This document shows, in pieces, positions 1 through 11,441 of a DNA stretch of 11,441 nucleotides. Both the position numbers and the translations under genes were made by a program. The notes under the pieces are model-generated. The model was not told where the DNA came from. It saw nothing but the letters and a program-made list of their open reading frames with translations, and searched no databases. Position 1 is the first letter of the stretch; each line of letters begins with the position of its first letter. This DNA is from Candidatus Cloacimonadota bacterium (GTDB taxonomy: Bacteria > Cloacimonadota > Cloacimonadia > JGIOTU-2 > B8-G9): the NCBI GenBank assembly GCA_003647765.1, contig QMNM01000018.1:1-11441 (forward strand), given 5' to 3'.

Positions 1-123
1 AAGACAGATATAGTATGGGATGGCAGAGATGAACAGGGAAAGGCAGTTCCAAGTGGAGTGTATTTTTATAGGTTAAGTTATGGTGAACATTATTTGACAA
101 AGAAGATGCTGTTGATGAGGTAA
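1..123 (+). CDS. C-terminal end of an exported protein with an SGVY-type sorting/FlgD-Ig tail (5' partial)
   Basis: The first 40 codons are open from the window edge and end in TAA at 121-123. The peptide contains WDGRDEQGKAVPSGVYFYRL and finishes with TKKMLLMR. The order W-D-G-x-D...G...V-x-S-G-V-Y-F-Y-R-L...K-K-M-x-L-x-R is the signature of the last strands of FlgD-Ig-like / type IX sorting-like C-terminal domains in FCB-group exported proteins, where the domain acts as a secretion or surface-anchoring signal. The function of the missing N-terminal part cannot be known. A strong terminator starts 20 bases after the stop, so this is the last gene of its transcription unit. The family assignment of the tail is fairly secure; use of a true type IX system is inference. 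Confidence 0.8.
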   Translation, partial: KTDIVWDGRDEQGKAVPSGVYFYRLSYGEHYLTKKMLLMR

Positions 124-142
124 TAAAAATTGTAATAGATAT

Positions 143-182
143 AAAGAATGCCCGGGGGACTTAGCTCTCCTGGGCATTCTTT
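143..182 (+). terminator. Rho-independent terminator
   Basis: Bases 143-159 pair with 166-182 to give a 17-bp stem, including two G-U pairs, closed by a 6-base loop (160-165). The core arms are AAAGAATGCCC and GGGCATTCTTT, far more GC-rich than the surroundings. The right arm runs into TTCTTTGCTTT, a T-rich tail. The A-rich foot of the left arm could let it work in both directions. It lies just after the stop codon of the upstream partial gene. Confidence 0.88.
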
Positions 183-240
183 GCTTTGGATTATTAAATA
201 ATAGACAATAAAAAAGATAGAAATATAGATGAATAATTAT

Positions 241-673: not shown

Positions 674-689
674 TTTAGTGGGTAAAAAT

Positions 690-1514
690 ATGGAAAAGTG
701 GAGATTCCTTAATTCAGGCAAATGTAGTGCAGAAAAAAATATGGCAATAGATGAAACAATTATGGTTGGAGTGCAGAAAGGGATTTCACCACCTACGATT
801 CGTGTCTATGATTGGCAACCTCCTACAATTTCATTAGGTTATCATCAGCAAATAGAACAAGAAATTGATATAGAAAAAACGAGACAGATGGGTTTTGCTA
901 TAGTTCGGCGTCCTACAGGTGGAAGAGCAGTCCTACATTATGATGAACTTACCTATGCTGTCATCGGAAGAATAGATGGAATTTTAGCCGGTTCCACTCT
1001 ACAAGCATATCAAACAATAAGTAAAGCGTTAATAAGAGGATTGAGTTATGCAGGCATTGACCTGTCATTAGAAAAGAAAGAATTGTCTTTACATAAGCAT
1101 CATGAAAAAAAGAATCCTTGTTTTTCCAGTAGTGCAAAATATGAATTGATATATAAATCCTGTTCTGAAAACAGTAAATGGAAAAAAGTTGTTGGTAGTG
1201 CACAGTTTAGAAAAAATGGGGTTTTACTTCAACACGGGTCTATTTTACTGAATCATAATCAAGAATTGCTAGCTGAGTTAATGTATGGATTATCAGAGAA
1301 AAAAAGGGAATTTCTGAAAAAACTTTTGGCTCAAAATACAATTTCTATAAATCAAATCTTGACAAGAAAAATCAGTTTTTCTCTATTGGCAGAAAAAATT
1401 TTTCAGGGATTCAAGCAAGAGTGGGATATAGATTTAATAAAAGAAGCTGATTTAAATAATGAAGAGAGAAAAATATACCCACATATCTTTTATAAATACA
1501 AAAATAAAGAGTAA
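690..1514 (+). CDS. lipM: LipM-type octanoyltransferase (BPL/LplA/LipB family)
   Basis: A cytoplasmic enzyme of 274 residues that should move octanoyl groups from acyl carrier protein to lipoyl-domain proteins (GcvH in the well-studied LipM pathway), the first step of lipoate assembly. Visible hallmarks: WRFLNSG at residues 4-10, the N-M-A-I-D-E segment at 17-22, the ligand loop RRPTGGRAVLH at 73-83, the presumed acyl-accepting cysteine at 144 in NPCFSSSAKYEL, the lysine 165 motif KVVGSAQ, then GVLLQHGSILL. The Cys in this position and the length match Bacillus LipM (about 278 aa) better than LplA ligase or LipB. I chose ATG 690 over the in-frame GTG at 678 because AGTGGG lies just upstream of the ATG and the GTG has no ribosome binding site. 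A lipoate ligase or LipL-like amidotransferase role is the main alternative. No lipA or gcvH is nearby. Confidence 0.85.
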   Translation: MEKWRFLNSGKCSAEKNMAIDETIMVGVQKGISPPTIRVYDWQPPTISLGYHQQIEQEIDIEKTRQMGFAIVRRPTGGRAVLHYDELTYAVIGRIDGILAGSTLQAYQTISKALIRGLSYAGIDLSLEKKELSLHKHHEKKNPCFSSSAKYELIYKSCSENSKWKKVVGSAQFRKNGVLLQHGSILLNHNQELLAELMYGLSEKKREFLKKLLAQNTISINQILTRKISFSLLAEKIFQGFKQEWDIDLIKEADLNNEERKIYPHIFYKYKNKE

Positions 1515-1679: not shown

Positions 1680-4589
1680 ATGAAAAGATTATTAGTTATA
1701 ATAACAATTTTATGGTTATTAATATATTTTACTGTAACTTTTGCTGGTACTACTGGTAAATTAGTTGGTCGTGTAATTGATGCTGATACCAAGGAGCCAA
1801 TTGCTAATGCTAGTGTTATATTATTAGGCACAGAAATGGGCGGTCCAACAGATAATAAAGGCCGATATATGATTATTAATATTCCACCTGGTACATATGA
1901 TGTAAAATCCTTGCAAATGGGCTATGCACCTATGACAGTAAAAGGTGTAAAAATCAGTCTTGACTTAACAACAACAATAAATTTTGAGCTTCATAAAGAA
2001 GCAATTGGTGTTAAGGGTATTGAGGTAAAAGCGAAAAAGAAATTGGTAGATAAAGATATAACCGGCAGTGTAAATATTGTTTCCACAGAAGATGTCAAGG
2101 CAATGCCAATTGAGAATATACAGGAGGTCGTAGCTCTTGAAGCTGGTGCAGTTGGCTCTGGAGAAAGTATGCATATTCGTGGAGGTCGTTCTGGTGAAGT
2201 TGTTTATACTGTTGACGGAATGTCTGTATCTAATCCTGTGTATGGTGGATTTGGACTTAATCTTGATATGGATGCTGTAAAGGATATGTCTATTCAAACT
2301 GGTGGATTTACTGCTGAATTTGGTAATGCTCAATCTGCAATTATAAATCTGGTTACAAAGTCAGGTGGACCTGAATATTCTGGGAAAATTGAATATCGCA
2401 CAGACCACCTTATAGGAGAGGGTAATAATAGTGATCAAGTTAAATTTAATTTTGGCGGTCCTGTATTATTCGGGAAAATGAAAGACAAGTTCACATTTTT
2501 TATAAATGCATCCGGCTCCTGGACTGATACAAGATATAAAGATTATTATCATATTGATAAAGATGATGCAATGTATTCATACTTAAGCAAAGTGCAGATA
2601 GATGAAATAAATTCACTCGGTTCTGGACGAGATAAATTTTTAGGTATAGAACTTGGAGACCGTTTTCTTAATAATTATCAGTTTCGTTTTAAGACAAAAT
2701 ATAAAATAGACCCTAAGAGAAAAATTTACTTTTCTTATACTGGTGATAAAGAAACATATCGTCCTTATAGTCATTCCTGGCGTTATGCATTAGAGCATTA
2801 TCAACATCAAGAAACAACCCATAATCGGCAATCTTTTACTTTTGATCATTCTATTAACCCGAAAATGTTCTATACTATTAAAGGAAGTCGTTTTGTAACT
2901 AATGTTAAAATTGATCCAGGTGTTGATAGGGACTGGTATTTTACAGGTAGCACAAAGATTAACGAAGTACCTCTTAAAGTTGTAGGAGACCAGCAGGTTC
3001 AAAATCCTGAATATCCTACACGAGGTTGGACACTAAATTTTGTCTATTATGATGAATTAGGAAATCCAGAAAATGCTAGTTTTATTGCACCAGGAACTTA
3101 TGATGGTACTAATTTGGATGACAAAACTACTACTTATAATTTAAGAAGTGACTTTACATATCAAATAAATGAGGTTCACAGTGCTAAAACTGGTTTTGAA
3201 TTTATGTACCACAATATTGAGAAAGATGTATTAGGTAGTCCATGGTATATTTATGAAAGTAGAAGGCAAGAATACTTGGGAAAAGTTGAGCCAGTTCGTA
3301 TTGATACTTTGGAAGAAGATGGCACTATAACCATATATGAGGTGTATTCTCATGAGGATTCATTAGCTGCTATTAAATATTCAGCTGGTAAATTAGATGG
3401 ATATAAAGCAAAACCGTGGCAGGGTGCATTCTATGTACAAGATAAGATGGAATGGGAAGGAATGATTGTAAATATGGGTATTCGTTTTGATGTATGGTAT
3501 CTAAAAGATTGGCTCTTTGGTAAAGAATATGAAATTCTAAAATCTGACGGTACTTATGAAGTAAAGAAGTTTGCAAAAAATTTACAAATAATGGTCAGCC
3601 CTCGTCTTGGTGTGTCCCATCCTATTACTGAAAAGGATGTGCTACATTTTGCATATAATTATCAAAGTCAATTACCTGCTATGCAGTATGTATTCACAAG
3701 TGCTACACCAGAGGTAGGAGAAAGTGGTTCATTAGTTGGCAATCCTAATCTAAAGCCAGAAACAACAATTACTTACGAAGTTGGTATAGGACATCAGATT
3801 GGAGAAGATTATCTTATAGATATTACTACTTATTATAAAAATATTTATAATCTTGTAAGTACTGAACTAGTTAGAAGTAAGATAGAAGCTGCTCGGGAAT
3901 ATAATCAATATGTAAGTAAAGATTATGGTAGCGTTAAAGGTATAGATTTCTCTTTTAGTAAACGGTTTAGTAATTTCTGGGGTTTAAAATTGAACTATTC
4001 ATATTCTTGGGCAATGGGCACTAATTCTGGAGCTCATGATGTTGTTAATAGTGAAATAAGAAACTTACGAGAGTTCCCGCTTAGTTGGGATGTGAGACAT
4101 AATGCTAATGTTAATTGTGAGTTCAATATACCGAAAGATGAGGAATTTAGATTATTTGGGTTAAAATTGCCAGATCAATTAGGTTTTACTTTTTTATGGA
4201 GAATCAATTCTGGACTTCCATACACACCTATTACTGAATATGATAAAGTTTTAGATACTAATTCTGAAAGGATGCCATGGACAAGCACAGCGAACTTAAA
4301 ATTCACCAAAAAATTTGATTTGATAAAAAAATCAAAAGTTGAATTATACTGCCAGATAAATAATTTATTTGATAAAAGGAATGTACGCAGTATATACCCA
4401 AAGACAGGCACTCCTCTTGATGAAGTCAAAATTGATGAGTATCTAAAAGAAGCGGAATTAGAAGCGCATATGCATGGAACTGAAATAGATCAAAACTATT
4501 ACAAGATATGGAAAGAACTTGTGCCTGGGAATCCGGGAATACGAAGTTCTGGCAGAAGAATTGAGTTTGGCTTTGTTTATAGATGGTAG
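1680..4589 (+). CDS. TonB-dependent outer-membrane receptor with carboxypeptidase-like regulatory domain
   Basis: A 969-residue outer-membrane importer. Residues 1-22 form a signal peptide (basic start, long hydrophobic core, cleavage likely near TFAG). Residues 25-104 are a carboxypeptidase-D-regulatory-like domain (GKLVGRVIDADTKEPIANA, later PPGTYDVKSLQMGY). A short linker with GIEVKAKK (113-120) sits where the TonB box is expected. The plug runs roughly 128-230 (VNIVSTEDVKAMP, HIRGGRSGEVVYTVDG, IINLVTKSGG). The rest is a beta-barrel with alternating aromatic strands, including NPNLKPETTITYEVG, a common late-barrel motif, and it ends in VYRW, a typical C-terminal aromatic. The start is preceded by a GGGGGTG-like site. 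No SusD-type lipoprotein follows, so this is an Oar/CarbopepD-type receptor rather than a SusC/SusD pair. The motor genes are 121 bases downstream. The substrate is unknown. Confidence 0.93.
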   Translation: MKRLLVIITILWLLIYFTVTFAGTTGKLVGRVIDADTKEPIANASVILLGTEMGGPTDNKGRYMIINIPPGTYDVKSLQMGYAPMTVKGVKISLDLTTTINFELHKEAIGVKGIEVKAKKKLVDKDITGSVNIVSTEDVKAMPIENIQEVVALEAGAVGSGESMHIRGGRSGEVVYTVDGMSVSNPVYGGFGLNLDMDAVKDMSIQTGGFTAEFGNAQSAIINLVTKSGGPEYSGKIEYRTDHLIGEGNNSDQVKFNFGGPVLFGKMKDKFTFFINASGSWTDTRYKDYYHIDKDDAMYSYLSKVQIDEINSLGSGRDKFLGIELGDRFLNNYQFRFKTKYKIDPKRKIYFSYTGDKETYRPYSHSWRYALEHYQHQETTHNRQSFTFDHSINPKMFYTIKGSRFVTNVKIDPGVDRDWYFTGSTKINEVPLKVVGDQQVQNPEYPTRGWTLNFVYYDELGNPENASFIAPGTYDGTNLDDKTTTYNLRSDFTYQINEVHSAKTGFEFMYHNIEKDVLGSPWYIYESRRQEYLGKVEPVRIDTLEEDGTITIYEVYSHEDSLAAIKYSAGKLDGYKAKPWQGAFYVQDKMEWEGMIVNMGIRFDVWYLKDWLFGKEYEILKSDGTYEVKKFAKNLQIMVSPRLGVSHPITEKDVLHFAYNYQSQLPAMQYVFTSATPEVGESGSLVGNPNLKPETTITYEVGIGHQIGEDYLIDITTYYKNIYNLVSTELVRSKIEAAREYNQYVSKDYGSVKGIDFSFSKRFSNFWGLKLNYSYSWAMGTNSGAHDVVNSEIRNLREFPLSWDVRHNANVNCEFNIPKDEEFRLFGLKLPDQLGFTFLWRINSGLPYTPITEYDKVLDTNSERMPWTSTANLKFTKKFDLIKKSKVELYCQINNLFDKRNVRSIYPKTGTPLDEVKIDEYLKEAELEAHMHGTEIDQNYYKIWKELVPGNPGIRSSGRRIEFGFVYRW

Positions 4590-4595
4590 ACAACA

Positions 4596-4644
4596 TGCGT
4601 AATGCGTAATGCGTAATGCGTAGTGTGTAATGCGTAGTGCGTAA
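4596..4644. repeat. Seven tandem heptamers (TGCGTAA) in the receptor-exbB spacer
   Basis: Seven consecutive 7-bp units: TGCGTAA three times, then TGCGTAG, TGTGTAA, TGCGTAG and TGCGTAA. The array starts six bases after the receptor stop codon. A 7-bp unit is not a multiple of three, so on the minus strand it yields a spurious peptide of repeating ALRITHY. It is richer in GC than its flanks, is too short-unit for CRISPR, and has no spacers. Confidence 0.95.
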
Positions 4645-4648
4645 GAAA

Positions 4649-4662
4649 ACAAGAAATTCTTG
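4649..4662. repeat. Near-palindromic 14-mer ACAAGAAATTCTTG, copy 1
   Basis: CAAGAA-A-TTCTTG is a perfect 6-1-6 inverted repeat. Including the leading A, it matches 13 of 14 bases of a second copy at 7207-7220, also in a spacer beside a tandem repeat. No T-run follows it, so it is not an obvious terminator. It could be a protein-binding site or the remnant of a repeat element. Confidence 0.6.
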
Positions 4663-4694
4663 GCTTCTTAATTATCTTGTGAAAGTAATGAAAT

Positions 4695-4702
4695 AAGGAG
4701 GA
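4695..4702 (+). promoter_or_regulatory. Strong ribosome binding site fixing the GTG start of exbB
   Basis: AAGGAGGA lies eight bases before GTG 4711. No in-frame ATG is near the site and the signal sequence begins exactly at the GTG, so the non-ATG start is well supported. Confidence 0.8.
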
Positions 4703-4710
4703 ATATAAAA

Positions 4711-5523
4711 GTGAGAATTAAAAAGAAGATAATTATATTGGCACTAATGGTCTTTTTATTGAGTAGTATATGTGCTGTTGTTGTTATGGCTCAGGCAGAT
4801 ACTGGAGATGTACAAGTTGATAGTGTAAAAAAACAAGCAGTGGAACCAACTGAAACAGCAAAAGCTTCTGGAATTAGTGGATTTGAAAGTTTTGCTCGTC
4901 AAATTGTTGGCAGTGGCTTGGTTGATTTATATATTCAAGGTGGCTTTGTAATGTGGCCTATGTTGATCTTGGTTATTTGGGCAGTTGCCACAATTATCTG
5001 GCGTATTGTTGCTTTGAGGTATGCAAAAATAAATGTGAATAATTTGTTAGAGAAAATTACTCCATATATTGAAGAAAATAATATTGATGAAGCTATTGAG
5101 ATATGCGCAAAGACCAGAGGTCCAGTAGCAAATATTTTACATGCTGGTTTATTAAAGGCGGATCAAGGTATAGAAGCTGTAGAGAAGGCAATAGAAGGTG
5201 CTGGTATTTTAGAGATGTCTTTCCTGGAAAAAGGATTAGTTGCTTTGGCTACTACAATCAATTTAGCTCCAATGTTGGGATTCCTTGGAACAGTGGTTGG
5301 TATGATACGAGCGTTTCAATCTATTGCTGCTGCTGGAGAGGTTGAACCGACTATTGTTGCTTCCGGTATCTCAGAAGCATTGATTACAACTGCTGCTGGT
5401 TTAGCTGTAGCCATTCCAGTACAACTATGCAATAACTTATTTGTATCTATGATTGATGGAATGGTTATTGATATGCAAAAAGGCTCAGAAAAATTGATTG
5501 AAACTTTAGTAGCTAAAAAATAA
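4711..5523 (+). CDS. exbB: ExbB proton-channel subunit (MotA/TolQ/ExbB family)
   Basis: A 270-residue inner-membrane protein; in this family a pentamer around ExbD uses the proton gradient to energise TonB. Residues 7-27 are a hydrophobic leader (signal-peptide-like), followed by a polar linker (28-70). Three membrane spans follow: about 79-100, 175-200 and 216-240. The two hallmark helices are intact: APMLGFLGTVVGMIRAF (186-202), with Thr194, and SEALITTAAGLAVAIP (221-236), with Thr227; these align with the two conserved pore threonines of E. coli ExbB (148 and 181). The cytoplasmic domain lies between spans one and two. The N-terminal leader and linker make it longer than the 244-residue E. 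coli protein. It uses a GTG start. The stop is 29 bases before exbD, in the canonical exbB-exbD order. TolQ or MotA is excluded by the neighbouring receptor and tonB. Confidence 0.95.
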   Translation: MRIKKKIIILALMVFLLSSICAVVVMAQADTGDVQVDSVKKQAVEPTETAKASGISGFESFARQIVGSGLVDLYIQGGFVMWPMLILVIWAVATIIWRIVALRYAKINVNNLLEKITPYIEENNIDEAIEICAKTRGPVANILHAGLLKADQGIEAVEKAIEGAGILEMSFLEKGLVALATTINLAPMLGFLGTVVGMIRAFQSIAAAGEVEPTIVASGISEALITTAAGLAVAIPVQLCNNLFVSMIDGMVIDMQKGSEKLIETLVAKK

Positions 5524-5531
5524 AAGAATTC

Positions 5532-5548
5532 TCCTCTAATTTGGAGGA
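5532..5548 (+). promoter_or_regulatory. Small hairpin covering the exbD ribosome binding site
   Basis: TCCTC (5532-5536) is complementary to GAGGA (5544-5548), with a 7-base loop. The right arm is the Shine-Dalgarno core for ATG 5553, so folding would hide it. With only five base pairs it is weak, and ribosomes finishing exbB just upstream (stop at 5523) would open it. This is the arrangement expected for translational coupling or ExbB:ExbD ratio tuning. Inference from complementarity only. Confidence 0.3.
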
Positions 5549-5552
5549 TAAA

Positions 5553-5966
5553 ATGAATTTAATGAAAGAGAAGAAAAAACATTTGAGCTCTACTATTCCT
5601 ACTTCTTCTATGGCTGATGTAGCGTTTCTTTTGCTCGTATTTTTCCTTGTAACAACAAAGTTCGATACTAAAAAAGGACTTGGTTTAACACTGCCACCGT
5701 ATACAGAGGCAGGAGGAAAAAAAGTTAAAATAAAGAAAGAAAACTTAACACAAGTATGGGTTAATGCAAAAGGTGAAGTAGCAGTAGATGAACAGGTTGT
5801 CTCATTGACAGAATTAGAAAATATTATTAGAGAGAAGATTACTGGTAACACAAATATGGTGATAGCATTAACAACGGACAGGAAAGCAAAATATTATATG
5901 ATGGTTAGAGTATTAGATAGAATACAAAAAGTAGGTGCAAAGAAAATATCATTATCTACAAGGTAA
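5553..5966 (+). CDS. exbD: ExbD/TolR-family biopolymer transport protein, first copy
   Basis: A 137-residue protein: a short basic cytoplasmic N-terminus (KEKKKH at 5-10), one membrane span (about 21-39) and a periplasmic domain. The motif SSMADVAFLLLVFFLVTT carries Asp22, the equivalent of the essential proton-carrying aspartate of ExbD (Asp25 in E. coli). The GLGLTLPP segment follows the span, and the domain ends in the family pattern of VIALTTDRKAKYYMMVRVLD...GAKKISLSTR. I chose ATG 5553, five to eight bases after GGAGGA, over the in-frame TTG at 5541, which would overlap that site. It partners ExbB in the motor. A second exbD follows 75 bases later. Confidence 0.93.
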   Translation: MNLMKEKKKHLSSTIPTSSMADVAFLLLVFFLVTTKFDTKKGLGLTLPPYTEAGGKKVKIKKENLTQVWVNAKGEVAVDEQVVSLTELENIIREKITGNTNMVIALTTDRKAKYYMMVRVLDRIQKVGAKKISLSTR

Positions 5967-5967
5967 T

Positions 5968-6010
5968 CAGTCGGGAATTCATCGTACACTAGCAATATAC
6001 TGCACTAATA
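5968..6010. repeat. Spacer element CAGTCGGGAAT...CACTAATA, copy 1
   Basis: The 75-base gap between the two exbD genes begins with CAGTCGGGAAT (5968-5978) and holds CACTAATA at 6003-6010. The same two blocks, 10 of 11 and 8 of 8 bases identical, occur in the same order at 10228-10250 with a shorter interval. This suggests two members of a dispersed intergenic repeat with different internal lengths. The number of copies elsewhere cannot be seen from here. Confidence 0.45.
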
Positions 6011-6041
6011 ATTGGAGATAGGATTGACCTAAGAGGTAACT

Positions 6042-6449
6042 ATGGCAAAGATAAAGCGAAAAACTAGATTATCAACTCAGATTCCAAATGCTTCTATGTC
6101 TGATATTGCATTTCTTTTACTTATATTCTTTATGGTTTCCACGACTTTTGTTAAAGAAAAGGGATTATCCGTAACATTACCACAAGCATTTGCTATTCAA
6201 AAAATAAACAGACGCAATGCTTCTACAATCTATGTTAGTCAGTCCGGTATTATATCTATTGATGATTTCAGTATTCAGGTTGATCAAGTTAAATATATAA
6301 TGATGGAGAAACTATCTGATAATCCGTCAATGGTAGTATCATTTCGGACAGACAGAAATGCTGATTATGGATTAATGGTTGATATAATGAATGAATTAAA
6401 AAAGGCAGGAGCATTACGAGTATCATTTGAAGCAAAAAGAAGAATATAA
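6042..6449 (+). CDS. exbD: ExbD/TolR-family biopolymer transport protein, second copy
   Basis: A 135-residue paralogue of the preceding gene. Basic N-terminus (KIKRKTR at 3-9), then NASMSDIAFLLLIFFMVSTT with the conserved Asp21 at the start of the only membrane span (about 20-38), GLSVTLPQ, and a periplasmic domain ending MVVSFRTDRNADYGLMVDIM...GALRVSFEAKRRI. Both copies keep the aspartate, so both should be able to act in proton transfer. Their periplasmic domains differ considerably (for example NLTQVWVNAKGEV against ASTIYVSQSGIIS), which fits an ancient duplication and either a mixed dimer or separate roles. Tandem exbD genes are common in FCB-group TonB loci. The ribosome binding site is AAGAGG at 6031-6036. 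Confidence 0.92.
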   Translation: MAKIKRKTRLSTQIPNASMSDIAFLLLIFFMVSTTFVKEKGLSVTLPQAFAIQKINRRNASTIYVSQSGIISIDDFSIQVDQVKYIMMEKLSDNPSMVVSFRTDRNADYGLMVDIMNELKKAGALRVSFEAKRRI

Positions 6450-6516
6450 CATATATTTAGCCATTAACAATACATTAAGTTAAAATAATTTATTGTAATT
6501 TTTGGCAGGTATTATA

Positions 6517-7194
6517 ATGGATGAAAAGGACAATAGGATAACTAAAATGAAAGCAAATATAGATATTATAAGTGATTGGAAGGATGATGTAGAGAGTTAT
6601 TATGAGAAAGCTGTAAGTTTAGCTCTTTTACTTATCCTTTTTACTTTTATTGTCTTCCCAAAAATAGAAGTCAAGCCATATAAAAAAGAGATAAAAGAGA
6701 TGAAGACGATTGATCTCCCACCTGAAATTAGACAAAAGATTAAGCCCCCAGAAGAAGTTAAGCCAATTATTCCACTTACAGTTGAAATATCTGGTGATGC
6801 TGGGGATGAAGACGCAGAAGTTGTTGAAACTATTGGTGAAACTTCTTTAGATTTGACAAAACCTCCTCCTCCTATGGAAGAAGGCGGTTATGGTAAAACA
6901 CCAAAATTTGTGATACACGATGAAAATCCAATTCCTATTAAGAAAGTGCCTCCCAAATATCCCGCATTTGCGAAAGAAAGCGGAATTGAAGGTACTGTTA
7001 TAATAGAAGCAGAAGTTTTTAAAGATGGTTCTGTTGGAGCTGTAGTTGTAGTAAAATCTCTACAATCAGGACCAGGAGGTCTAGATGCAGCAGCAATAGA
7101 AGCAGTAAAAAAGTGGAAATTTATCCCAGCAAAGAATAATAATCAACCTGTAGCTGTCTGGGTTAGATTACCAATTACATTTTCTCTTGATTAA
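6517..7194 (+). CDS. tonB: TonB energy-transducing protein
   Basis: A 225-residue protein linking the ExbB/ExbD motor to the outer-membrane receptor. A cytoplasmic segment of about 30 residues precedes one span (about 33-47, SLALLLILFTFIVFP). The periplasmic linker (48-140) is acidic and proline-bearing (LPPEIRQKIKPPEEVKP, TKPPPPMEEGG) but lacks the long Pro-Lys repeats of E. coli TonB. The C-terminal domain (145-225) is clear: PPKYPAFAKESGIEGTVIIE, FKDGSVGAVVVVKS, LDAAAIEAVKKWKFIPAK, VWVRLPITFSLD. Oddly, the span contains no histidine, whereas E. coli TonB has His20, and the cytoplasmic segment is long and charged. I chose ATG 6517 because GGCAGG sits seven bases upstream; the in-frame TTG at 6502 has no ribosome site. 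It lies 67 bases after exbD and 71 bases before the large exported protein. Confidence 0.9.
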   Translation: MDEKDNRITKMKANIDIISDWKDDVESYYEKAVSLALLLILFTFIVFPKIEVKPYKKEIKEMKTIDLPPEIRQKIKPPEEVKPIIPLTVEISGDAGDEDAEVVETIGETSLDLTKPPPPMEEGGYGKTPKFVIHDENPIPIKKVPPKYPAFAKESGIEGTVIIEAEVFKDGSVGAVVVVKSLQSGPGGLDAAAIEAVKKWKFIPAKNNNQPVAVWVRLPITFSLD

Positions 7195-7206
7195 GAGAAC
7201 AAGATG

Positions 7207-7220
7207 ACAAGAAACTCTTG
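7207..7220. repeat. Near-palindromic 14-mer ACAAGAAACTCTTG, copy 2
   Basis: CAAGA-AAC-TCTTG is an inverted repeat and matches 13 of 14 bases of the copy at 4649-4662. Its right half, AACTCTTG, is the unit that is then repeated in tandem at 7213-7244, which suggests that the array grew from this half. Confidence 0.55.
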
Positions 7221-7244
7221 AACTCTTGAACTCTTGAACTCTTT
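7213..7244. repeat. Four tandem octamers (AACTCTTG) in the tonB-exported protein spacer
   Basis: AACTCTTG occurs three times in a row and is followed by AACTCTTT. The array fills almost half of the 71-base spacer and ends eight bases before the GGAGGT ribosome binding site (7253-7258) of the next gene. Unit length and sequence differ from the heptamer array at 4596-4644. Confidence 0.93.
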
Positions 7245-7265
7245 TAAAGATTGGAGGTTAGATAG

Positions 7266-10211
7266 ATGGCAAAATTTAGTAAGGGCTTATTCATTCTGAT
7301 ATTAGTGATTCTATTTTTATGTTCTACTATTGTAATAGCACGAATGGCTGATGAAACTAATAATAGTAAAAAATTGGATATATTTAATTATCATTATGTT
7401 GGGAATATCTGGTTAAGAGTAAGTAATTATGGATTTTTTGGTGCAGGAGACGATATAACGCCAAAATGGCCGTCATTAGAGTATCCAGGTGGTTCTGCAA
7501 TTGACTATCTTTATCAAGGTGCATTATGGTTTGGAGCAAAAAAATATAGAAGAGGCGATGATGGTAGAATAGTGTATGAAGTAGACCCTGTATCAGGTGA
7601 TTCCATTGCAATTATTGACACATTAGTATCTATAGGTTTTGATGGATATCACGATGTTATGGAATTTCTTCCTGCATATAACCCATTAGAGGAAAACCCA
7701 TTAGGTGGACAATATACTGCATATAATTTGAAAGACAAAATATTAGAAAGTTCAATTCGTACACAAAAAACTGGTAATGATGATGATGGTGATGGAATGA
7801 TAGATGAAGACCCACCAGGATTTGCTTTACCTTTCAGAGTAACTGAAGAGATGCCAGGGGTGTTTTCTATTTTTGGTGGACAATTTATGCACGAATTAGA
7901 CCCTGATCAAACAGTTGCAATTATTACTGATGAAAGAAATAGTTTGATATGGTTTCCATTAGGTTTTGTTGATTTATCCTATATTGACCCTGACAGTATC
8001 TATTGCTTTTCTGAAGAAGAAGATGATGATGATGATGGACTATCAGATGAAGATGGATTCCCTACTTCTGAACAAGATTTCCTATCTTATTATTATGATT
8101 ACAGCCCTTTTGGCACAGCTGGTAATAGAGATTGGGGCAGCTGGAGAAATTCTAATAATCATGTCCCATTAAACATTCGTGTCAGACAGATAAGTTTTCA
8201 ATGGAGTTATGAGTATATTAAGAATTTATGTTATATAGAATTTGATATTACTAATATGAATCCAAATGATACCCTATATGATTGTGCAATGGGTATATAT
8301 ATGGATAGTGATATAGGTCCACAGGCATGGGGGGGCAGAACAATATCTACTGATGATATTAGTAGTTATGTAAAAGGATCTAGTTACGAATTCGCTTATT
8401 CTTATGATTCTGATGGTGATGGTGGTTTAACAACTGGTATGATAGGAGCTCGTGTGTGTACGCCTGACCCTGACCAATTAGATTTTGAATGCTGGTCTTA
8501 CTCTTTAGATGTTGACCCGCCTGATGATTTTGACCCTCTAAGCGACCCATCTGGTGGCAAGCTAACAGCAAATGAAAAATACTGGCTACTTACCGGACGA
8601 AATCCTGGTCCAGATAGGTTTGTTTCATTAAGACAGGAGCCAGATAATCAGATAGGTGATCCTTGTGATACACGATATCTCTTTGCATTCTATGGAGATA
8701 TGAAAGGAGCATCTGCACCAACAGACTCATCATGGAACCTTGCACCAGGCAAAACAATGAAAATTGTAATTGCTCTATTTCCAGGAGAAAATCTTACAGA
8801 GTTAAAATCCACAGCATTATGGGCAAAATCAATATATGGTGAAGCACAAACATTGACTACTGTTGTTTTACCAGATACTTTTGACCATTACAATGCTCCT
8901 GGTCCACCAGATATTCCTAAAATGACACTGGAACAATCTCATAATGGCGATTCTATCTTTGTTTATTGGGATAATGGCTCAGAATTTACTTATGACCCTA
9001 TGACTGTTGATGAAGGATTAGTTGGCTACCAAAATTTAATACCATATTGGCCCAGTTATGATCCTGATATTCAGCCCGGCGATTCTGATTACAATGAAAA
9101 CGCTATAGTTCCTCGTGATATTGCTGATCGTCTTAGACACGATTTTCAGGGATATACTGTATGGCATGCTTCTGGTAGTGGCGAACAAGATGCTTATGAA
9201 ATGGTGGCAAGATGGGATAAAATAGATACTAAACAAGATCTTGAGGACTATGACTGTTGTATGTACGGCAGCATTCCAGAAGATGAATGGATGGATTTTG
9301 GCGGTCAATTAGGCAATGATACTGGATTGCCTGATTCTCATAGAGTAAAAGAAAAAGATATTGTATATATCTCTGATAACGATACAATCTATTGGACTGA
9401 CTATTATCAATTAGATGATCTTTATGAGATAGATTCTATTGCAGTAGGGGATACTATCTATGGAATGCCACTTTATGCCGCTGATGTGGATTCTTCTGTT
9501 TCTACTATTGGATTATCCCTAGACCAAGAACAATTGCTATTCAAAAATCCCAATGTGCCTGATGATGTGTATTTAGCTTTATGTGATGACAAATTAATTC
9601 CTCTGCCTGGACATCTTGGACAGAATCATCCTGGATTTGATGACTTTGCTGAAATGAGAAAATACCGCTTGGCACGAAGGCTCTATAAATATACTATTAA
9701 ATATCCAGAAAAAGGTGTAGAGAATTACATATCAGTAACAGCATTTGACCGTGGTATGCCATCCAAACCATTGATGGCTCTGGAATCTGGTAGAGATGCT
9801 AATAGAATTACTGTTTTCCCTGGTCCAACTGCAACATCTAATATGGATAATATTTATGTAGTACCTAATCCTTATTTAGGACAGAGCAAATTTGATGGTC
9901 GTAAAGAGGGTGATGAAAAAGGTGATAGAAGTAAAAGAATTTGGTTTGTTAATTTACCATTGAATTGTAAGGTTAAGATATTCACTCTTGCTGGTGATTT
10001 GGTTGATGAATTTGAGCATCATGGAGAACATTACGCAGAAGTATTAAATCCAAGTAAAGCCGCACCAACTGGAATAACTTCTGGTGGAATTCACGAATGG
10101 AATATGTTATCAAAATATGACCAGATTATTGCAAGTGGCGTATATCTATATTCAGTGAAAAATATTGATACTGGCGATGTAAAAGTTGATAAATTTGTAA
10201 TTATTAAGTAA
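7266..10211 (+). CDS. Large exported protein with acidic calcium-loop motifs and SGVY-type C-terminal sorting domain
   Basis: A 981-residue exported protein of unknown function. Residues 1-26 are a signal peptide (LFILILVILFLCSTIVIA). The N-terminal region carries FFGAG...PSLEYPGGSAIDYLYQGALWFGAKK (57-93), a segment I associate with large exported proteins of uncultured FCB-related phyla. Acidic Asp/Gly loops resembling thrombospondin-3/dockerin calcium sites occur at 171-182 (NDDDGDGMIDED), 250-264 (EEEDDDDDGLSDEDG) and 381-386 (DSDGDG). The tail, about 861-981, begins with IYVVPNPYLGQS, continues through VKIFTLAGDLVDEF and ends with ASGVYLYSV...KVDKFVIIK; this is the C-terminal sorting/FlgD-Ig-like domain of surface or secreted proteins. 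No catalytic motif is recognisable. A GGAGGT site precedes the ATG. It lies between tonB and a PorV-like barrel, which suggests surface display linked to the transport locus. A binding or structural role is more likely than an enzyme, but this is inference. Confidence 0.85.
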   Translation: MAKFSKGLFILILVILFLCSTIVIARMADETNNSKKLDIFNYHYVGNIWLRVSNYGFFGAGDDITPKWPSLEYPGGSAIDYLYQGALWFGAKKYRRGDDGRIVYEVDPVSGDSIAIIDTLVSIGFDGYHDVMEFLPAYNPLEENPLGGQYTAYNLKDKILESSIRTQKTGNDDDGDGMIDEDPPGFALPFRVTEEMPGVFSIFGGQFMHELDPDQTVAIITDERNSLIWFPLGFVDLSYIDPDSIYCFSEEEDDDDDGLSDEDGFPTSEQDFLSYYYDYSPFGTAGNRDWGSWRNSNNHVPLNIRVRQISFQWSYEYIKNLCYIEFDITNMNPNDTLYDCAMGIYMDSDIGPQAWGGRTISTDDISSYVKGSSYEFAYSYDSDGDGGLTTGMIGARVCTPDPDQLDFECWSYSLDVDPPDDFDPLSDPSGGKLTANEKYWLLTGRNPGPDRFVSLRQEPDNQIGDPCDTRYLFAFYGDMKGASAPTDSSWNLAPGKTMKIVIALFPGENLTELKSTALWAKSIYGEAQTLTTVVLPDTFDHYNAPGPPDIPKMTLEQSHNGDSIFVYWDNGSEFTYDPMTVDEGLVGYQNLIPYWPSYDPDIQPGDSDYNENAIVPRDIADRLRHDFQGYTVWHASGSGEQDAYEMVARWDKIDTKQDLEDYDCCMYGSIPEDEWMDFGGQLGNDTGLPDSHRVKEKDIVYISDNDTIYWTDYYQLDDLYEIDSIAVGDTIYGMPLYAADVDSSVSTIGLSLDQEQLLFKNPNVPDDVYLALCDDKLIPLPGHLGQNHPGFDDFAEMRKYRLARRLYKYTIKYPEKGVENYISVTAFDRGMPSKPLMALESGRDANRITVFPGPTATSNMDNIYVVPNPYLGQSKFDGRKEGDEKGDRSKRIWFVNLPLNCKVKIFTLAGDLVDEFEHHGEHYAEVLNPSKAAPTGITSGGIHEWNMLSKYDQIIASGVYLYSVKNIDTGDVKVDKFVIIK

Positions 10212-10227
10212 AGAAATAAACTACAAA

Positions 10228-10250
10228 CAGTCGCGAATCAGACACTAATA
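10228..10250. repeat. Spacer element CAGTCGCGAAT...CACTAATA, copy 2
   Basis: The 82-base gap before the barrel gene contains CAGTCGCGAAT (10228-10238) and CACTAATA (10243-10250), the two blocks seen at 5968-6010 but with 4 instead of 24 bases between them. This looks like a shorter member of the same intergenic family. Confidence 0.45.
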
Positions 10251-10293
10251 CATTTTGGATTGTTTGTTGGAAAAATAGATAGGAGAATTCCAC

Positions 10294-11319
10294 ATGAAGA
10301 AAATCTTTATTCTAATATTAGTTCTGGCTTTGATTCAATCAGCTTTGTTCGCTGACATCTTTCCAAAGGCTGGGACTGCTGGACTACAATTTTTGAAATT
10401 AGGCATTGATGCTCGTGCTGTTGGTATGGGGCAAGCTTATACAGCCTATACTAATGATGCTTCATCTTCTTATTGGAATCCAGCTGGTCTAGCTCTTTTG
10501 AGAAGGAATGAATTATTTATCAATCATATCAGCTGGCCAGCAAATATTAACTATGAGTATGCAACTTATGCGTATGTAACAACAATGGGAACTTTTGCTA
10601 TTAGCTCTGGCATTCTACATATGGATTATATGGATATTACTGATGAAGATACATTCGGGCCAACTGGCGAAGAATTTACCTGCGGAGATGCTATGGTCGG
10701 TGCTTCTTATGCTGTGAGCTTAACTGATAAGTTCTCATTCGGTGGAACTGTAAAATATCTAAGAGAATATCTTTACGAGTATGATGTCAATGGCTGGTCT
10801 GTGGATGTGGGAACATTATATAATACAGGTTGGAAAAACTTGACAATTGGAATGTCTTTGAGGAACTTTGGTCCCAATCTACGCTATAAAGTAGATAATG
10901 ATGAAGATGGTGAATATGATGAAGATCCTTATGACTGGCTGGATAATGACGGTGACGGAAAAATTGATGAAGATGGTGAAGAGCTCTTATTTCCTATTCC
11001 AATGAATTTCTCGCTCGGTGTAGCTATAGACATTATAAAAGAGCAAAATCAAGGACTAAATGCAGTTCTTCAACTTGACAATTGTATAGATAGACAAGAG
11101 ACCTGGAATATTGGTGCAGAATATCGGTACAAAAATCTCTTCTTGCGCTCTGGATACCAATTTGAATATGATACTAATGGATTGTCCTTTGGTGTAGGAG
11201 TAAAAATTCCTACATCCTTTGCCATCCTAAAAATTGACTATGCCTATACTGATATGGGCGATTTAGTAGAAACATTCTTGAAAGGTGCTCATCGCCTTTC
11301 ATTGAAATTTAGCTTCTAA
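10294..11319 (+). CDS. PorV/PorQ-family outer-membrane beta-barrel protein
   Basis: A 341-residue FadL-like barrel of the PorV/PorQ (UPF0164-related) family. Residues 1-20 are a signal peptide. The family signature is at 26-67: AGTAGLQFLKLGIDARAVGM, then AYTAYTNDASSSYWNPAGLA. Alternating strands continue to the end (RLSLKFSF), with a C-terminal Phe typical of outer-membrane proteins. PorV in Bacteroidota carries type IX cargo from the translocon to the attachment complex; many relatives in other phyla have no proven role. An unusual insert at 201-230 (DNDEDGEYDED and DNDGDGKIDEDGEE) resembles paired calcium loops, and the same style of motif occurs in the exported protein encoded just upstream. 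The start has AGGAG at 10281-10285. The barrel assignment is firm; a shuttle role for the neighbouring protein is inference. Confidence 0.88.
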   Translation: MKKIFILILVLALIQSALFADIFPKAGTAGLQFLKLGIDARAVGMGQAYTAYTNDASSSYWNPAGLALLRRNELFINHISWPANINYEYATYAYVTTMGTFAISSGILHMDYMDITDEDTFGPTGEEFTCGDAMVGASYAVSLTDKFSFGGTVKYLREYLYEYDVNGWSVDVGTLYNTGWKNLTIGMSLRNFGPNLRYKVDNDEDGEYDEDPYDWLDNDGDGKIDEDGEELLFPIPMNFSLGVAIDIIKEQNQGLNAVLQLDNCIDRQETWNIGAEYRYKNLFLRSGYQFEYDTNGLSFGVGVKIPTSFAILKIDYAYTDMGDLVETFLKGAHRLSLKFSF

Positions 11320-11339
11320 ACAAAATTAAGGAGGAAATG

Positions 11340-11441
11340 ATGAAAAAAGTAATGATAATTAGCATCCTTATGATGCTAATCGCGTCCCTAACATTTGGTG
11401 AATTGCAACAGCAAGTGCGCACATTTATTCCTATTGAAACA
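11340..11441 (+). CDS. Start of another exported protein (3' partial)
   Basis: The frame is open to the window edge for 34 codons. It begins MKKVMIISILMMLIASLTFG followed by ELQQQVRTFIPIET, a clear signal peptide with likely cleavage near Gly20. AAGGAGG (11328-11334) is five bases before ATG 11340; an ATG directly before it (11337) is in frame but too close to the ribosome site. It starts 20 bases after the barrel gene, so it belongs to the same operon. The mature part is too short to identify. Confidence 0.75.
   Translation, partial: MKKVMIISILMMLIASLTFGELQQQVRTFIPIET

Follow-up and report, generated by a model that had tools for sequence, protein, structure and literature searches.

Introduction

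In the attachment complex of Porphyromonas gingivalis, PorZ and PorU retain their C-terminal domains (CTDs) and are held by the barrels PorQ and PorV (PMC8545088). For cargo with a type B CTD of the type IX secretion system (T9SS), the gene of the cognate shuttle lies directly downstream of the cargo gene (PMC12618676). Among TonB-dependent systems, BtuB-BtuG lid complexes are known (PMC10404256), and Oar of Myxococcus, a receptor with an N-terminal extension and a plug that is partnered by tonB, exbB and two exbD genes, is needed for the secretion of PopC; no sequence feature distinguishes exporting from importing receptors (PMC6434023). The present study concerns 11,441 bases of Candidatus Cloacimonadota DNA (contig QMNM01000018.1 of assembly GCA_003647765.1), hereafter the window, from a phylum listed among those possibly having a T9SS (PMC11285876). 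The window is a complete contig (C18) of a 1.97-Mb genome that is 89% complete, and it holds a probable operon running from a TonB-dependent receptor through exbB, two exbD genes and tonB to a 981-amino-acid exported protein, here termed P981, a PorV-type barrel, and the start of a further exported protein (Table 1).

As with PorZ-PorQ and PorU-PorV, a candidate surface protein with a type A-like CTD, presumably uncleaved, is found here together with a PorV/PorQ barrel, but P981 has no visible propellers, a TonB motor and receptor share its operon, and acidic loop pairs occur in both partners. SusC-SusD, RagA-RagB, and BtuB-BtuG also comprise a TonB-dependent receptor (with a CarboxypepD-type extension for SusC) and a co-encoded surface partner. 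In contrast to those partners, P981 is T9SS-tailed, has a signal peptide in which no lipobox was seen, would need its own anchor barrel, and showed no family-level relationship to SusD or BtuG when searched. The Oar-Ton system of Myxococcus xanthus shares the receptor with extension and plug and the dedicated tonB, exbB, and two exbD genes, whereas neither PorV nor T9SS cargo has been described there and Oar secretes PopC. The type B cargo of F. johnsoniae is similar in that its gene is followed by that of its own PorP/SprF-like shuttle barrel; the operon studied here differs in its PorV-type barrel, PorZ-like CTD, and TonB genes. No description of a receptor-motor-P981-PorV operon was found in the literature. 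Each part is of a known kind, and the undescribed phylum-wide linkage suggests an undescribed outer membrane complex. We give a probability of roughly 0.4 to the reading that this is a TonB-energised outer membrane uptake complex with a T9SS-delivered surface subunit, P981, held by the PorV-type barrel.

Conservation of the operon

P981 was found in 97 of the 103 Cloacimonadota genomes surveyed, each at least 80% complete, and in 42 of their 44 genera, mostly at full length and with about 50 to 65% identity. In a scan of named genomes, all of the P981 matches listed were from Candidatus Cloacimonadota. The gene order receptor–exbB–exbD–exbD–tonB–P981–PorV-like barrel–exported protein recurs phylum-wide. 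Where both genes could be read, tonB and P981 were adjacent on the same strand in 64/65 loci and P981 and PorV in 60/61, and a receptor orthologue stood 5' of exbB in all 31 loci holding both; these values, like those for gaps, are counts of loci and not independent events, some loci coming from the same genomes. The median gaps were 9 nt for exbB-exbD and for exbD-exbD, 8 nt for exbD-tonB, 18 nt for tonB-P981, and 10 nt for P981-PorV. Gaps between the operon genes of the window are 17 to 121 nt, and two of them are filled by short (near-)perfect tandem repeats: ATGCGTA x7 at 4595-4644 between receptor and exbB, and AACTCTTG x4 at 7213-7243 between tonB and P981. Both of these gaps are much shorter in most relatives.

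The genes upstream of the receptor differ between loci (lplA, purM, pfkB, and aspC), from which it was deduced that the unit starts at the receptor. No strong + strand terminator-like hairpin was present between the receptor and the contig end, the sole strong one in the window being that at 142-183. The co-location of these genes is far beyond chance. The unit is a core TonB operon of the Cloacimonadota, and P981, for which no Pfam match was obtained, is a core protein of the phylum without a Pfam family. The original prediction, made from the window alone, had described one probable operon, and this is supported by the order kept through the phylum and by the terminator search. All of the genes that it had placed here are present with clear family matches, except that P981 is recognised by its PorZ-type CTD only. 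It had also described the locus as lacking SusD, and none was recognised in the loci read, where neighbours were read as open reading frames and not all were scanned for SusD. By gene-neighbourhood comparison, nearly all genomes have their main P981 copy together with tonB; a distribution mostly elsewhere, which would have counted against the prediction, was not found.

A second P981 copy occurs in about nine genomes, with the main copy at the TonB operon wherever the main locus was read. The nearly complete genomes G029 and G031 lack a full P981, and no TonB was found there either, a pattern consistent with the operon having been lost as a unit or being missing from the assembly. Downstream (3') of PorV, relatives carry one to three proteins of a T9SS-tailed family of about 700 amino acids, here termed d1, with a type A tail that in one locus (L068) matches both Por_Secre_tail and FlgD_ig. 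The truncated reading frame at 11337 of the window resembles the N terminus of this family only weakly (8 bits) and is probably a d1-type protein.

P981 and the PorV-type barrel

The C terminus of P981 is, by profile and predicted fold, a T9SS sorting domain, type A-like and closest to PorZ, in agreement with the sorting-type tail that had been predicted for it. This assignment is supported by the following data. The PorZ model NF052228 of NCBIfam covers amino acids 856 to 981 (E 1.6e-7), and the top Foldseek match of the CTD in the AlphaFold model was PorZ (5m11; E 1.6e-5), which VIA-align superposed with a Z of 11.2 at 2.4 A over 87 residues and 29% identity. Generic Por_Secre_tail models gave no match to P981, and its tail was therefore deemed atypical. 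The whole-length score against PorZ was 30 bits, from the CTD only, against a cut-off of 260, and neither of the two propeller domains of PorZ was seen. The FN3-like part (amino acids 545 to 852) was identified in a low-confidence model. Amino acids 43 to 542 weakly resemble a GH94/GH116 beta-sandwich (Z about 10 to 11), which was kept as a lead only because the predicted local distance difference test (pLDDT) value there is mostly <50. A search of the P981 profile against PDB sequences gave nothing real (best E 0.55). Column identity averaged 56% over 23 P981 sequences (alignment A1). Separately, P981 paralogues of 558 to 1,410 amino acids (L070:10092-14324, L069:17870-19852, and L077:9448-11124) hold N-terminal P981 parts only plus a type A tail, and one of them has a lamin tail domain.

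The neighbouring protein had been called a PorV/PorQ barrel, and it exceeds the cut-off of that family (NF033709; 212 bits against 90). Among PDB sequences, F. johnsoniae PorV alone was related to it (E 1.2e-20). The structural model of the barrel, with a pLDDT of 79, matched PorV of the SprA complex (8gl6_F/6h3i_F) with a Z of about 30. It fell below both equivalog cut-offs, with 111 bits for PorQ (cut-off 220) and 78 bits for PorV (cut-off 250). Each genome has about 6 to 17 PorV-family matches, among which the operon PorV forms a separate orthologous group: its members scored 580+ bits, and no paralogue exceeded 114. Several of the other PorV paralogues also adjoin large T9SS-tailed proteins, and the pairing of barrel and cargo was therefore considered a wider habit in the Cloacimonadota.

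Two acidic loops of the form DxDxD..DED were present in all 50 operon PorVs and at least two in 27 of 28 P981s, while the loop pair occurred in none of 16 PorV paralogues, 28 receptors, 26 SprA, 20 PorU, and 37 d1 proteins. These shared loops are the most specific evidence that P981 and the barrel belong together. In the barrel model every long loop lies on the odd-to-even side, which would face outward if the C terminus is taken to be periplasmic; the acidic loops are therefore predicted to be extracellular. They resemble calcium sites, perhaps binding calcium, and probably help P981 and the barrel to bind each other.

The type IX system

SprA, the translocon, scored above the cut-off in 36 of 40 genomes, and the source genome of the window has a SprA of 2025 amino acids (contig C80; pieces matching with E values down to 4.6e-66). 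PorU, the sortase, was above the cut-off in 21 of 30 genomes, with weaker matches in the remainder. With the anatomy of P981 and the barrel, these matches make T9SS export of P981 and its anchoring by a cognate PorV well-supported predictions. In several relatives from the same taxonomic order, sprA and the operon are divergent and only about 7 kb apart, with housekeeping genes between them (L067:3301-16609 of G004; also G003:C25, G005:C1, and G013:C191). A second C25 sortase-like protein, about 1,700 amino acids long and PorU2-like, was also observed (L074:5374-10509, on contig C26 of the window's own genome; L076:6662-12812; L096:2535-8584), in L076 and L096 with its own PorV paralogue directly after it.

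GldL, GldM, and GldN (TIGR03513, TIGR03517, and TIGR03523) were matched in 0 of 40 genomes, and as the control genomes also gave no match, their absence is not proven. It is this result that makes participation in the T9SS itself the main rival to the uptake complex. P981 and the barrel would then be T9SS machinery, corresponding to PorZ-PorQ of the attachment complex, and ExbB-ExbD-TonB rather than GldL-GldM would power or help the T9SS. The nearness of the P981 CTD to PorZ, the rank of PorQ as the best-scoring equivalog model of the barrel, and the presence of SprA and PorU beside the missing Gld matches all fit this explanation. So do the machinery-like conservation of P981, the evolutionary rates of receptor and barrel, which track SprA and PorU, and four genomes with SprA (G002, G003, G006, and G009) in which the operon ExbB is the only MotA/TolQ/ExbB (PF01618) member found. 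We nevertheless regard it as unlikely: the Gld negatives come without a positive control, the propellers of PorZ are missing from view in P981, the operon receptor has an ordinary plug, and many of these genomes have other ExbB-ExbD operons. A more specific version, a Cloacimonadota T9SS without the GldLM-GldN core that, itself or in its surface assembly, would be energised by the TonB motor of the operon, with P981 and the barrel linking both systems, is less likely again.

The TonB motor and the receptor

ExbB, both ExbDs, TonB_C, and the receptor plug were all above the cut-off (PF01618, PF02472 twice, PF03544, and PF07715). A conserved xxVxVxA-like stretch (GIEVKA in the window), a candidate TonB box, was seen in the alignment between the receptor extension and the plug. 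A Tol-Pal operon was rejected since TonB_C fits far better than TolA and no Pal or TolB occurs in the gene order. A SusCD operon was likewise rejected, P981 not being SusD-like (no SusD or any other Pfam match).

In 14 of the 30 genomes searched, no TonB_C protein other than that of the operon was found, although these 14 each have 2 to 7 plug-domain receptors; the motor is therefore general and must serve other receptors. A motor private to the operon receptor was rejected on the same ground, and the proposal of a self-contained uptake module is not supported, the operon ExbB also being the sole one found in the four genomes named above. In the window's own genome, which is incomplete, the single plug receptor found was that of the operon. 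A separate ExbB-ExbD-ExbD operon beside a protein of 1,505 to 1,941 amino acids (L078:282-7328 and L081:6025-13999) was observed in many, not all, genomes and is possibly another envelope motor.

The shared design with Oar, namely extension plus plug and a Ton system with two exbD genes, together with the requirement of Oar for PopC secretion, raises the alternative that the receptor is a TonB-driven exporter of P981 or of the downstream tailed proteins, which the barrel would catch at the surface. Exporters are not recognisable by any known sequence feature (PMC6434023), however, and with the T9SS tail of P981 and with SprA present another exporter is already available. This alternative was judged very unlikely.

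Weighing of the uptake complex

Under the uptake complex reading, P981 would leave the cytoplasm by Sec export and cross the outer membrane through SprA, using its PorZ-like tail. The CTD would then keep it on the adjacent PorV-type barrel, in the manner of PorZ and PorU on PorQ and PorV. Receptor, P981, and barrel may act jointly in surface uptake, with P981 as an outside receptor or lid that would take the job of the SusD- or BtuG-type lipoproteins of Bacteroidota, and the motor would energise this receptor plus others. The original prediction had proposed that P981 captures or processes the imported material.

Several observations count against this proposal. No substrate clue was found at the operon, as the search gave no riboswitch and P981 no enzyme family. 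P981 is better conserved than the receptor, an uncommon pattern in a lid. Identity to the window protein averaged 57.8% for P981, 58.9% for PorV, 57.2% for ExbB, 52.5% for TonB, 47.4% for LplA, and 45.1% for the receptor. The AlphaFold model of P981 is poor (mean pLDDT 55.9). In one genome (G028, locus L101) a P981-PorV pair is accompanied by no TonB genes, and in about eight an additional P981 stands alone. Finally, although evolutionary rates grouped the receptor with P981 and the barrel (partial r 0.67 to 0.81) and set the motor genes apart as another group, the unlinked SprA (0.57 to 0.86) and PorU covaried as strongly with the first group, a second receptor doing so more weakly. The rate grouping tracks the membrane compartment, outer versus inner, and because the unlinked proteins show the same pattern, it was not taken as evidence for a specific complex. 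The rate-covariation test did not DISCRIMINATE, and it left the uptake complex and the T9SS role unseparated.

The rates following compartment rather than operon, the general motor, and the P981 copies found alone or with PorV only would also be expected if the surface pair were co-expressed with the TonB genes simply as common envelope proteins required simultaneously, with no receptor contact. Adjacency in nearly all loci phylum-wide, with median gaps of 10 to 18 nt, is stronger than usual chance co-expression, and we consider this explanation improbable to about the same degree as the T9SS role. As a side observation, in G028 (L101 and L049) the P981-PorV pair lies amid four d1-type proteins, and its PorV is diverged (37% identity) with both acidic loops kept.

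Other features of the window

The features are collected in Table 1. Window positions 1-123 encode an FlgD/T9SS-tail-like C terminus (SGVYFYRL...KKMLLMR) that belongs to another exported protein, and the hairpin follows it. A small open reading frame of about 67 amino acids with one transmembrane stretch lies at 470-672, upstream of lplA.

Table 1. Coordinates of features in the window
Feature	Position	Strand	Evidence or remarks
Hairpin terminator	142-183	+	18 pairs; upstream of all operon genes
lplA	678-1514		precedes receptor gene
TonB-dependent receptor	1680-4589	+	first gene of operon; CarboxypepD_reg-like N-terminal extension and Plug (aa 125-217); PF13620/PF13715/PF07715
exbB	4711-5523	+	MotA/TolQ/ExbB proton channel; signal-like N-terminal extension; PF01618, E 7.5e-30
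exbD copy 1	5553-5966	+	PF02472, E 6.7e-26; alternative TTG start 5541
exbD copy 2	6042-6449	+	PF02472, E 3.9e-23
tonB	6517-7194	+	PF03544 (TonB_C), E 4.6e-21; alternative TTG start 6502
P981	7266-10211	+	signal peptide, large N-terminal region, FN3-like part ~aa 545-852, T9SS CTD
P981 DxDxD..DED loop 1	7779-7811	+	aa 172-182
P981 DxDxD..DED loop 2	8022-8054	+	aa 253-263
P981 T9SS CTD (predicted)	9837-10208	+	aa 858-981; PNP motif aa 867-869; conserved terminal lysine
PorV/PorQ-family barrel	10294-11319	+	14 strands; own orthologous group; NF033709, 212 bits
Barrel tandem DxDxD..DED loops	10894-10974	+	aa 201-211 and 217-227, between strands 7 and 8
Start of further exported protein	11337-11441	+	signal peptide; first 35 codons, cut by contig end; probably d1

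Implications

TonB and type IX secretion, which are usually studied apart, are joined in one operon of nearly the whole of an uncultured phylum, and P981 and its barrel form a concrete pair for purification. If the TonB motor does power secretion, this would explain how a T9SS can be driven with no GldLM motor. If P981 is instead a T9SS-delivered partner of a TonB-dependent receptor, the surface-lipoprotein lid would not be the sole solution.

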